A stretch of 64,000 bases of DNA from Halalkalibacillus sediminis. Lineage in GTDB: Bacteria; Bacillota; Bacilli; Bacillales; Alkalibacillaceae. Of the stretch, positions 10,945 to 17,565 are shown piece after piece (position 1 is the first letter of the stretch; each line of letters begins with the position of its first letter). The notes beneath the pieces were generated by a model. The model was not told the DNA's origin. It saw only the letters and a list, made by a program, of their open reading frames with translations, and ran no database searches. The stretch covers positions 124,001-188,000 of the forward strand of contig NZ_PJNH01000002.1 of NCBI RefSeq assembly GCF_002844535.1, written 5' to 3'. The position numbers and the translations under genes are program-made.

Positions 10945-11622
10945 ATGATGAACACTTTGAAGGAAATACCTGCTAGAACATATATAATGATATTTATCGC
11001 TTTGACCGTTATAGGTGGCGGTTTCTATATCTTCTCTGAGTTGGCAGACGAGGTGCTGGAACAAGAAAAGTTCATCATTGATCAATGGGCTTCAGAATTT
11101 GTGGCGCAGTTCAGCAATCCAACTCTGTATACTTTTTTGGGATGGGTGACTGAATTAGGTTCGGTTTATACCCTGACGTTTGGTTCAATTGTGCTAGTGG
11201 CGATTTTAGCTATTTATTATAAAAGAAGAACATGGAGAATTGTCTATTTTATTATTGCAATGGGAGGTATAGCACTACTCACAACAGGTTTGAAGAGTGC
11301 TTTCTCAAGAGATCGACCGAATATCCTCGAGCAATATGACGGCACTGGGCACAGCTTTCCAAGTGGACATTCGACAGCCCCGATGGTTTTTTATGGATTC
11401 ATCATTTATTTGATCATTCGTAGCCACCTAAACAAAGCTGCCAAGTGGGCCCTCAACACTTTCTTGGTCATATTGATCCTTTCGATCGGATTGAGTAGAG
11501 TATTTTTAGGCGTCCACTTTATAACAGACGTGTTCGCAGGTTTCCTGCTAGGACTAAGCTGGCTCGTAACCTGTATATTGATATTAGAATACACCCTTTG
11601 GAGAAAAGGGCGAGACATTTAA
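10945..11622 (+). CDS. PAP2-family membrane phosphatase
   Basis: 225 aa integral membrane protein with about six membrane segments. The three acid-phosphatase motifs are complete: KSAFSRDRP (K-x6-RP), PSGHS, and SRVFLGVHFITD (SR-x5-H-x3-D), which supply the catalytic histidines. Bacterial members dephosphorylate phosphatidic acid, phosphatidylglycerophosphate or undecaprenyl pyrophosphate; which one cannot be told here. Start ATG at 10945 after AAGGGGAG; a second ATG follows directly. Single-gene unit with its own terminator. Confidence 0.9.
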   Translation: MMNTLKEIPARTYIMIFIALTVIGGGFYIFSELADEVLEQEKFIIDQWASEFVAQFSNPTLYTFLGWVTELGSVYTLTFGSIVLVAILAIYYKRRTWRIVYFIIAMGGIALLTTGLKSAFSRDRPNILEQYDGTGHSFPSGHSTAPMVFYGFIIYLIIRSHLNKAAKWALNTFLVILILSIGLSRVFLGVHFITDVFAGFLLGLSWLVTCILILEYTLWRKGRDI

Positions 11623-11650
11623 CCGAGGAGAGAGCTCCTCGGTTTTTTTG
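11621..11650 (+). terminator. Rho-independent terminator after PAP2 gene
   Basis: AACCGAGGAG AGAG CTCCTCGGTT followed by TTTTTG; it starts at the stop codon. Confidence 0.9.
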
Positions 11651-11837
11651 TTGCGATTTATTTAAGTGAAGCTGAAGGGATGCTTCACCTAAATAATAAA
11701 GTCACTTGGGAGACAAATGTTAGTAAAGAAACAGAAAAAATATTGAATGAATAAAAATCACACTCAAAATATTTTGAATTTTATGGTAATATTATAAGGT
11801 GTAACCTCACAAAAATGTATTTATATGGAGGGTTTAT

Positions 11838-13355
11838 ATGTATTTACAAGATATATTGCCAAAAATGTCTAAGCTTTATCTTGGAAGGATAGTAGATAGT
11901 TTTTTAAAAGATGTTCGCATGGAAACAGAAGAAGATATGAGAGATGTAATTCTTCGGAACATCGATGAATTTCAAAACAAAGAAAGAGTAACCCGAAATC
12001 TGAATTTCAACAAAGAGAAACGTGATATAGCATTAATCAACGAAATGATTCTCATGTCTTTAATGGAGCAACAGGGTTACTCACTAAGTGAAACGGACCT
12101 CTTCAAAATGGTTCACAAACTAGAAACAGAAATAGTAGAGCAAAGCAAGGATGATGATTATATTAATACAGCAATACCTGCGTATGAAGAAAGAGTTTAT
12201 AGTGCGGTATTAAACGAGTCATGGAAAAAAGATGATTCACTCAATGAACATGAAATTAACATTTTGAATGTCCTTAGACAGGAGCTTGGTTTGACTAAGA
12301 GAGACCATCATCTTCTAGAAAGTAGGATCGGCCGTTTTCCACAGAAAGCTAATAAATTACATTCAACTAAACAAATTGAAAGGTCTTTAAAAAATCTTCA
12401 ATCTCGTGGTGTAATTTTAAGGTTCAAAGAAGATACATCTTATTATATAATTCCAAAAGAAATAGCAAGGGTCGTTCGTTATGAAATGGGTGGTGAGCTA
12501 AGGAATGAAGTATATGAATCATTACTAGATGATTTAAACGTTTCACAACTTAAAGCTATCCTCCACAACTTAAATGTAAGTATTGGAGGTAAAAAAGAAG
12601 ATCTAGTTTCAAGGATAATTAAACATAATATATTACCATCTACAGCTCTTTCGACATTTAGCTCAAAAGAACTTTCTGACATACTTAAGGGTCTAGAAGG
12701 TGCAAAAGTAAGTGGAACTAAAGAAGATAAAATCCAAAACATCATCGATTACTATGAAAATCTATCTACGCCAGAATCTTCGGACCCGACCGATGAACGA
12801 GCAAGGTTATATGACTTTTACGAAGAACTTGCATCGAGAGATTATAAAGCTTTAAGAGTTAATAAAATAATCGATAAAGATATTAAGACTGAGAGATACT
12901 TTGAAGAAGCTACTCATTATTTATTCGAGAAAAAACTAGGTGTAGAGACGACTGACATGAAAGGCTCAAAACATGCAGATGGAAAATTAAGGTATTCTTC
13001 CAAAGAAACAATTTTATGGGACAACAAAAGTACGGAGCAACCCTATCATTTTCCGGAAGAACATTTTAATCAGTTTCTTGGATATATTCGCTCAGAGGAA
13101 AGTAGAGTTACCTTATTCTTGGTAGTTGTATACGATTATACAAAAGAGGCAGTGGCGCAAGCTCAAAAGCTTAAAGCCTTTTCTGATCAAGATACTGATG
13201 TGGCTTTAGTAAAGGCCTCCGATTTAAAATATGTAGCCGAGAATTGGATGAATTATTCTACAAAAAAACAGCCTGTTTTCGATCTTCAAGTGTTTAATTT
13301 AACCGGCGAATTAACAAGGAGTATGTTGATTAGTCGCATGGAATGGGCGCTCTAG
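11838..13355 (+). CDS. SAP-domain protein with FokI-like PD-(D/E)XK nuclease domain
   Basis: 505 aa. The N-terminal ~220 residues are helical and charged and I do not recognise them. Residues ~233-310 contain two SAP-like helix-extended-helix repeats (NVSQLKAILHNLNVS...GGKKEDLVSRI; SSKELSDILKGLEGAKVSGTKEDKI), a DNA-binding fold. Residues ~353-490 look like a FokI-type cleavage domain: a Glu-containing helix (FEEATHYLFEKK), then HADGK (Asp381) and WDNKST (Asp395, Lys397), giving D-x13-D-x-K, followed by PEEHFNQFLGYI. No methyltransferase or second restriction gene is adjacent, so a classical type IIS system is not supported. Start ATG after GGAGGG. Coding sequence looks AT-richer than its neighbours. 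Function inferred: DNA cleavage, possibly defence or repair. Confidence 0.72.
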   Translation: MYLQDILPKMSKLYLGRIVDSFLKDVRMETEEDMRDVILRNIDEFQNKERVTRNLNFNKEKRDIALINEMILMSLMEQQGYSLSETDLFKMVHKLETEIVEQSKDDDYINTAIPAYEERVYSAVLNESWKKDDSLNEHEINILNVLRQELGLTKRDHHLLESRIGRFPQKANKLHSTKQIERSLKNLQSRGVILRFKEDTSYYIIPKEIARVVRYEMGGELRNEVYESLLDDLNVSQLKAILHNLNVSIGGKKEDLVSRIIKHNILPSTALSTFSSKELSDILKGLEGAKVSGTKEDKIQNIIDYYENLSTPESSDPTDERARLYDFYEELASRDYKALRVNKIIDKDIKTERYFEEATHYLFEKKLGVETTDMKGSKHADGKLRYSSKETILWDNKSTEQPYHFPEEHFNQFLGYIRSEESRVTLFLVVVYDYTKEAVAQAQKLKAFSDQDTDVALVKASDLKYVAENWMNYSTKKQPVFDLQVFNLTGELTRSMLISRMEWAL

Positions 13356-13360
13356 GATTT

Positions 13361-13984
13361 ATGAAATCGTTTCTAAGCATTACAACCTTCATCATTTCAT
13401 TCTATTTTTTCTCAAGTTTCTTTTATTCAGTTTTAGCTGATATTTTTACTGAACCAATAGGGATGGCTAGATTCATAGTAATCTTTTTTGGATTTATCAT
13501 TTCGATTATCATCTCAGGTACCTTTTATCGTTTTCTTGAAGACCGTGAGCGTACATGGTTCCCACCTAAAAGAAGGTTGCTAGTTACTGCTGGTATCATT
13601 TTCTTTTTAGTTGCGGTTTTCGGTATCGACTATTGGAATGATTATAGGGAAAAGCCTGTGCTTGCTGCTATGAAGGTAAATGTTGAGAGTGATAGTCCGT
13701 TTTATTTGCTTATTGATCGTAACGAGGAAAGACTTAAACTGACATCGGAAAAAGACATCAAGCAGTTTTTTAGCTACTTTGAGGAAGTAACTGTACAGAG
13801 GGTAAAAGAAGATGAATGGCAATTAGGTAAGGCTTATAGTTTGCATCTTTATAATGAAAAAAATGGTCATAGATCATTCATCATTTCAAACGGATTTATC
13901 ATGATCGGTGAATCTTTATATGAAGTGATAGATGGTGATTGGAATCCCATGGGAGTTATGAAATTTTTAGAAGAAAAAACCTGA
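13361..13984 (+). CDS. Membrane protein of unknown function, coupled to the nuclease gene
   Basis: 207 aa from ATG 13361; an in-frame ATG at 13343 would overlap the nuclease stop by 13 bp. Three membrane segments (about residues 1-22, 30-52 and 68-88) are followed by a ~110-residue soluble domain, probably extracytoplasmic, with no motif that I recognise. The start lies within 6 bp of the nuclease stop, so translation is probably coupled. Whether it works with the nuclease is unknown. Confidence 0.7.
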   Translation: MKSFLSITTFIISFYFFSSFFYSVLADIFTEPIGMARFIVIFFGFIISIIISGTFYRFLEDRERTWFPPKRRLLVTAGIIFFLVAVFGIDYWNDYREKPVLAAMKVNVESDSPFYLLIDRNEERLKLTSEKDIKQFFSYFEEVTVQRVKEDEWQLGKAYSLHLYNEKNGHRSFIISNGFIMIGESLYEVIDGDWNPMGVMKFLEEKT

Positions 13985-16545: not shown

Positions 16546-17565
16546 GTGATTCTGAAGCAACCTAAGTTTTCTATTTATCAGAAGATGTTAGAGTGTGCAG
16601 ATTTTCGCATGAAAGATTTGAGCAAGCGTAGTTATGTTGATGGGTTGTTGTACAACGAACGTAGCGGATTGCTCGGCGAGGAAAGCTTGTTGTTTCCGAT
16701 TAGTAAGATTGATTTTCCGTTTGTCGCGTTGTGTAATTTGCGGCTGATTTTGAAAGGTGTTGTGTTCCAGATGGATACGATTTTGTTGTCGCCGCGTTTC
16801 GCTTTGATTATTGAGGCGAAACATTATACGGGGCAGGTCTGGTTCGAATGCGATTTTGACCAAGTTCGGCAAGTGAGGCCAGGCGGTGAGGAGCGAATTT
16901 ACGATGACCCAGTTCTTCAGGTCGAGGAACAAAAGTATTTGTTGGAGCTATGGTTGCAACTAAATGGATATGAAAACCTCCCTGTCGAAACCGTCGTTGT
17001 CATGACGAACCCCAACGCCCAATTGAAACTCCAGAAACCCTCTGAACTCCACAAAAAGAAAGTCATCACCCTTCCACGATTGTCCAAACGATTCCGAGAA
17101 ATTTCCGATTACTTTGATGAAGAGTTTTATAGCATGGATCAAGTGCGTAGTTTAGGTGAAAGTTTGCTGCGCGCCGACCGCCCATACTGTCCAAATATAT
17201 TGGAGCGGACTAAATTAAGTTCAGATGATTTTAAGAGAGGCGTGTGGTGTGTGAATTGCAAAGATTTTTGCATGAAGCGCGCGAGGTTGAGTTGGGAGTG
17301 CGATAGATGCGGGCTGCGAGATCGAAATGCCCATCTCCCCGCGCTGAAAGATTACTATCTACTGTTTGGGGAGGAGATTAGTAATTCACAATTACGCTGG
17401 TGGTTGGGATTGGAATCCTCGGACGTAGCTGGCTATCTTTTAAAAAAGTTGAATTTGAAGAAAAGAGGGCGTGGGAGATCGCTCAAACACCTTCTGGGCT
17501 TTGACTACTACAAGGATTTCGACTATATGGATGCCAGAAGGCACGAAAAAGATAGAGGTTATTAG
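16546..17565 (+). CDS. NERD-domain (nuclease-related) protein with zinc-ribbon
   Basis: 339 aa. GTG start with AAGGAGG 7 nt upstream. Residues ~40-155 form a NERD domain (GVVFQMDTILLSPRFALIIE, EAKHYTGQVWF with the E-x-K pair of a PD-(D/E)XK-like fold, then VVVMTNPNAQLKL). A cysteine cluster follows at ~225-250 (CVNCKDFC ... CDRCG), probably a zinc ribbon, and a basic C-terminal region (LKKRGRGRSLK). NERD proteins are proposed nucleases of unknown role. Leucine is written TTG unusually often in the first half compared with neighbours. A 21-bp repeat array starts ~60 bp after the stop. Confidence 0.82.
   Translation: MILKQPKFSIYQKMLECADFRMKDLSKRSYVDGLLYNERSGLLGEESLLFPISKIDFPFVALCNLRLILKGVVFQMDTILLSPRFALIIEAKHYTGQVWFECDFDQVRQVRPGGEERIYDDPVLQVEEQKYLLELWLQLNGYENLPVETVVVMTNPNAQLKLQKPSELHKKKVITLPRLSKRFREISDYFDEEFYSMDQVRSLGESLLRADRPYCPNILERTKLSSDDFKRGVWCVNCKDFCMKRARLSWECDRCGLRDRNAHLPALKDYYLLFGEEISNSQLRWWLGLESSDVAGYLLKKLNLKKRGRGRSLKHLLGFDYYKDFDYMDARRHEKDRGY

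Follow-up and report, generated by a model that had tools for sequence, protein, structure and literature searches.

A stand-alone FokI-type nuclease with a winged-helix region and SAP-type repeats in halophilic bacteria and haloarchaea: a candidate conditional restriction enzyme

The window, a 64,000-nucleotide stretch of DNA from the salt-loving bacterium Halalkalibacillus sediminis, encodes a solitary nuclease of 505 residues (P0001; window positions 11838–13355, + strand; all coordinates without a locus name refer to the window). P0001 consists of a winged-helix (wHTH) region (residues ∼47–219), two SAP-type repeats (residues 231–264 and 274–307) and a FokI cleavage fold (residues 314–505), arranged in this order. 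The AlphaFold model of P0001, based on an input alignment of 18 sequences, has a pLDDT of 82.4, with low confidence for residues 1–27. P0001 is best explained as a stand-alone restriction enzyme that spreads horizontally, acts conditionally (type IV-like) and combines a FokI-type blade with a wHTH-SAP aiming module, a reading to which we give an even chance. The initial annotation proposed that a FokI-like nuclease, solitary, self-sparing and equipped with SAP repeats, forms an uncharacterized defence pair with a membrane partner; the first half of this proposal agrees with the fold and the solitary status of P0001, and the second half does not stand.

The cleavage domain (residues 314–505; 12777–13352, + strand) was delineated by VIA, Foldseek and Pfam, and its assignment to the FokI fold is well supported by the predicted structure. 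FokI is the best PDB match in VIA (Z 15.7/15.6), followed by N.BspD6I (Z 14.2, rmsd 3.5 over 180), R.BspD6I2 (Z 12.5) and HindIII (Z 10.5). FokI is also the top PDB match in Foldseek (E 7.6e-6), and a BFVD search returned no significant match. At the sequence level, the Pfam FokI_cleav_dom family (PF09254) matches P0001 residues 341–424 with 17.8 bits against a curated cut-off of 25, and the isolated cleavage domain with an E-value of 5.5e-4. The same family is matched in 14 of the 18 family sequences (best E 9.6e-6), and a distant homologue (L055) scores 26.5 bits, above the curated cut-off. The FokI-like domain of the initial annotation, which had called for a structure prediction, is thus borne out by both structure and sequence alignment.

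The active site of P0001 is complete. When a profile of the C-terminal domain is compared with PDB sequences, FokI ranks first. Although its E-value of 0.18 is weak, the alignment is informative: the catalytic residues D450, D467 and K469 of FokI pair with D381, D395 and K397 of P0001. In this alignment, GSKHAD381G of P0001 lies opposite GSRKPD450G of FokI, and WD395NK397 lies opposite VD467TK469. D381 (12978–12980, + strand) and D395-N-K397 (13020–13028, + strand) form exactly the D-x13-D-x-K centre that had been read from the translation, and D381, D395 and K397 show no substitution among 17 relatives that span Bacillales, other Bacillota and haloarchaea. The acidic residue E356 (12903–12905, + strand) in the first core helix is likewise invariant in these relatives.

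The region N-terminal to the blade is predicted to aim it. The winged-helix region (11976–12494, + strand) adopts a MarR/ArsR-type wing in the N-terminal model, with a best VIA Z-score of 9.4 (RosR, SqrR), a middling value for a common fold that is shared by many wHTH proteins. Its GRFP motif (residues 165–168) is invariant from Bacillales to haloarchaea. The first SAP repeat (12528–12629, + strand) is detected by Pfam PF02037 at residues 231–263 (E 2.1e-9; 37.2 bits against a threshold of 23.9), and the SAP domain is matched in all 18 family sequences. The SAP structures of Tho1 and DEK match the family profile at this repeat with E-values of 0.01–0.02. The second repeat (12657–12758, + strand) lies below Pfam detection in P0001 itself. 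A distant homologue, L056, contains a clear Pfam SAP domain (residues 311–343, E 7.3e-8) in the stretch collinear with P0001 residues 274–307, and the initial description of two SAP-type repeats ahead of the nuclease therefore holds. In sequence alignments, homology is full-length across Bacillota and haloarchaea. Another homologue (L057, G645:C28, 1318–2856) pairs this winged-helix region with several SAP repeats (SAP E 6.3e-12) and lacks a FokI domain, which indicates that the aiming module can exist apart from the nuclease. The winged helix and SAP repeats would bind DNA.

The nuclease gene is preceded by a good ribosome site, GGAGGG (11827–11832, + strand), which lies in an upstream segment that moves together with the coding sequence (11764–11837, + strand, as delimited by DNA alignment with an Aquisalibacillus locus, L030). 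Conservation against this locus reaches to about −60/−75, although the two loci differ. The upstream region contains the promoter-like TGGTAATAT, which, read by eye, may drive the nuclease gene; a consensus scan returned no sigma-70-like promoter, although the segment is conserved. A terminator of the upstream PAP2 gene (11621–11644, + strand) separates that gene from the nuclease and is the one terminator-like site of the scan, against 1.0 expected by chance.

Downstream of the nuclease lies the gene of a 207-residue membrane protein with three hydrophobic regions (P0002; 13361–13984, + strand). Its ATG at 13361 is located 6 bp past the nuclease stop on the same strand, as originally noted for a three-TM gene, and the terminator scan found no terminator in between, so that the two genes are probably co-transcribed in this one genome. 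This arrangement suggested that the nuclease and the membrane protein constitute a two-gene defence pair, a reading for which constant pairing had been set as the test. The pairing is not observed elsewhere. With a threshold of E≤1, tblastn detected no P0002 homologue across 34 loci, totalling 524 kb, that surround homologues of the nuclease or their remnants; some of these loci overlap, and one carries a homologue without the nuclease domain. Weak P0002 relatives (19–26%) occur in seven genomes, all of them away from the nuclease, and P0002 has no family match above cut-off in Pfam, PADLOC or NCBIfam. The nuclease homologue of the Halorubrum provirus Humcor1 also precedes a small membrane gene by 3 bp (L035, 9378–9872), but this gene encodes a YdjM-family protein unrelated to P0002. 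The two-gene pair was rejected, as nuclease homologues in the loci examined do not stand beside the membrane gene and have no conserved neighbour, and we regard it as very improbable. Judged from these genome comparisons, the adjacency is particular to the H. sediminis genome, and P0002 is a chance neighbour outside the system.

The nuclease is sparsely and patchily distributed. Relatives (58–75%) are scattered among halophilic and alkaliphilic Bacillales. Relatives occur in 8 of 101 close genomes, 4 of 399 class genomes and 4 of 398 phylum genomes; in each of the latter two counts, one of the four is the H. sediminis genome itself and another is a match that is weak or lacks the nuclease. Distant homologues are found in other Bacillota classes, on a plasmid of Natrinema, close to an integrase, and in the Halorubrum coriense provirus Humcor1, which is induced (PMC7911831). 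A scan of viral contigs with a mixed alignment retrieved one locus, which looks like the same Halorubrum provirus, and the other viral-contig scans retrieved no nuclease homologue. The neighbourhood is different nearly every time, and no neighbour gene is conserved across about 20 loci. Between differing loci, DNA similarity spans the gene and ∼25–75 bp upstream and ends near the stop codon; within Alkalibacillus, the shared upstream stretch is about 130 bp. In 16 of 16 loci, the gene has a lower G+C content than the DNA on either side, with differences reaching 19 points. Decayed copies include C-terminal remnants in G004, G022 and L033 and a broken frame in L031. In the Lentibacillus halodurans remnant (L033, 7971–8666), only the last 220 residues persist, between a LutC-like gene and an FAD-oxidase-like fragment. 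In Alkalibacillus, the nuclease has dN/dS values of 0.03–0.08, indicative of purifying selection, and the protein is thus under constraint while it is kept. An empty-site comparison delimited no inserted unit, with synteny too eroded both in Alkalibacillus and around the window. This mobility signature, read from sequence, indicates that the nuclease gene probably moves horizontally as a single gene.

The neighbourhoods do not place the nuclease in a fixed defence context. Neither P0001 nor P0002 matches any PADLOC-DB 2.0.0 family up to an E-value of 1. No defence partner recurs, and PADLOC matches are scattered among the neighbours of 20 loci (NERD-UvrD by L023, WYL by L022 and PDC-M54A-like by L029). 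Most loci lie outside recognizable defence islands, which counts against the defence reading and is at odds with the defence-island presence that the neighbourhood survey was to look for, and many neighbours are housekeeping genes. In the locus of a Sporosarcina metagenome-assembled genome (L029, 1–7151), an integrase-like open reading frame, a Zeta-toxin-like kinase and a 1452-residue protein with a partial PDC-M54A match all lie upstream of the nuclease, and this locus looks like a mobile defence island. In the window, a protein that combines a NERD domain (Pfam E 7.6e-14) and, at its C-terminus, a zinc-ribbon-like part is encoded 3 kb downstream of the nuclease (16546–17565) and weakly resembles only the N-termini of PglW/MAD6. 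In four loci (L030, 1494–3047; L031, 5959–7608; L032, 6404–7879; L026, 11292–13472), a catalase gene is found no more than a few kb from the nuclease, of KatE type in three and KatG in Alkalibacillus, as named by eye from sequence. This proximity, spotted post hoc, appears to exceed a rough-guess expectation.

How the host genome is spared was addressed through its methyltransferases. No methyltransferase is encoded beside the nuclease gene in the neighbourhoods read, in line with the initial statement that none is nearby; the nearest one detected, in G458, lies at a distance of 9.6 kb. Across the eight genomes that carry an intact nuclease copy, C5 methyltransferases are present in 3/8 and the D12 type in 1/8, and the N6/N4 type is variable. 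Every one of these hosts has some methyltransferase of the searched families, and none of these families is common to all eight except PF02384/PF07669, whose matches present in all eight are short and which we read as probable housekeeping methyltransferases. Since the methyltransferase set varies by host and none is adjacent to the nuclease, host DNA modification is unlikely as a general protection. A 1212-residue Eco57I/N6-methylase protein, possibly type IIG or BREX-like, is encoded outside the window (G000:C2:18079-19050), about 118 kb from the nuclease. Winged-helix nuclease fusions without an adjacent methyltransferase have been argued to act as type IV systems, and several were shown to prefer methylated DNA (PMC11037411). 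By analogy, the same stand-alone argument may extend to the SAP-FokI nuclease.

Because no methyltransferase travels with the gene and the hosts share no methyltransferase set, the nuclease is most likely conditional. In the proposed mechanism, the winged helix and the two SAP repeats would bind and inspect double-stranded DNA, and the C-terminal FokI-type domain, with its one PD-(D/E)XK active site, would cleave DNA close to the binding site without sequence specificity, as FokI does. Cutting would probably follow pairing with a second cleavage domain; FokI needs dimerization (PMC4081073). The trigger would be a feature absent from the host chromosome, either a phage base modification, as for type IV enzymes, or another feature of foreign DNA, and the enzyme would thereby have an antiviral role. 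Against this reading stands FokI itself, which contains a winged-helix domain but does not depend on methylation (PMC11037411).

Three other readings share most of the probability left beside conditional restriction. The initial annotation held a repair function equally possible. A DNA repair or recombination nuclease would recognize damaged or branched DNA through its SAP repeats and incise it with the FokI-type domain, similar to eukaryotic FAN1. Solitary status fits this reading as well, as repair enzymes are usually solitary genes, and SAP domains are described for repair nucleases such as Fan1 and SLX4 (PMC4045212, PMC8287910). FAN1 chains also appear in the N-terminal Foldseek list, at insignificant E-values of 1.0–1.5. 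However, the VRR-Nuc domain of FAN1 is unlike the FokI-type domain, no repair-gene neighbour recurs, and the gene is very patchy in its presence, AT-rich relative to its flanks, repeatedly decayed and carried by a provirus and a plasmid. The horizontal-transfer signature, the decay, the provirus and plasmid carriage and the missing modification partner together favour restriction or defence over housekeeping repair, and a repair role, no longer on equal terms, is considered unlikely.

A fixed-sequence, orphan type IIS restriction endonuclease, protected by an unlinked host methyltransferase or by absence of its site, is given slightly less weight than repair. The cleavage fold and the recognition-then-cleavage layout are those of FokI and BspD6I, and some methyltransferase is available in every host. 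On the other hand, these methyltransferases differ from host to host, as the C5 and D12 counts illustrate, and none accompanies a gene that moves often. Less weight again falls on a selfish or mobility-linked nuclease that maintains itself through cleavage of competing DNA or by favouring capture of its gene at breaks, with no benefit to the host. Such an element would account for a locus that differs almost every time, for a shared unit of about the gene plus 25–130 bp upstream and for the provirus and plasmid carriage, but neither a common target site or flanking signature nor a recurring mobility gene is seen. The strong purifying selection in Alkalibacillus does not separate a selfish from a host-serving nuclease. 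Conditional restriction by a stand-alone enzyme is retained as the preferred reading. A wider proposal, which we advance tentatively and hold somewhat short of an even chance, is that these proteins form an undescribed single-gene immune nuclease family with members in halophilic bacteria, in haloarchaea and on a provirus. In this family, the wHTH-SAP-SAP part would sense DNA that is foreign or modified and would license the FokI-type blade; the sensor also occurs without the blade (L057).

Zinc-finger nucleases and TALENs cut DNA with the FokI blade, whose usual natural setting is a type IIS system with a methyltransferase. A naturally solitary FokI-type nuclease under a different aiming module would show how this blade stays safe without host modification and would offer a compact, testable, single-gene immunity candidate in halophiles. 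The present analysis also corrects the idea of the membrane neighbour as a part of the system.

Among the known systems closest to P0001 is the type IIS restriction endonuclease FokI (PF09254), with which it shares the fold of the cleavage domain (Z 15.7), all three positions of the catalytic centre, the downstream stretch (YxFP...QFLxYI / YNLP...MQRYV) and the layout of an N-terminal DNA-binding region and a C-terminal blade. FokI differs in that it contains no SAP repeats, P0001 is solitary without a partner methyltransferase, and the sequence similarity is marginal. The BspD6I heterodimer (Nt.BspD6I and the small subunit R.BspD6I2) shares the nuclease fold (Z 14.2 for the former and 12.5 for the latter) but is a two-subunit type IIS system without SAP. 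The adjacent cognate methyltransferase that marks type IIS restriction-modification is absent beside the nuclease gene in the neighbourhoods read, and P0001 displays the type IV feature of a stand-alone nuclease without a methyltransferase. Mrr is a type IV enzyme with a solitary wHTH and PD-(D/E)XK architecture and no methyltransferase; P0001 shares this plan, and Mrr differs by its Mrr_cat blade, matched weakly in 1 of 18 relatives (E 0.0024), and by the lack of SAP. FAN1 likewise places SAP ahead of a PD-(D/E)XK-class domain but belongs to the VRR-Nuc nuclease family and has a eukaryotic repair role. The type IV winged-helix fusion endonucleases are also modular, solitary and without an adjacent methyltransferase, whereas their blades are DpnI-like PD-(D/E)XK, HNH, GIY-YIG or PLD, and a FokI-type blade with SAP falls outside those four (PMC11037411). 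The nuclease has no NCBIfam family and no PHROG match of weight, and open-licence papers yielded no description of a SAP-FokI nuclease or restriction enzyme. Since the blade and the concept of a solitary winged-helix nuclease are both known, the parts of P0001 are not new, but the combination of a FokI blade with wHTH-SAP aiming appears to be.
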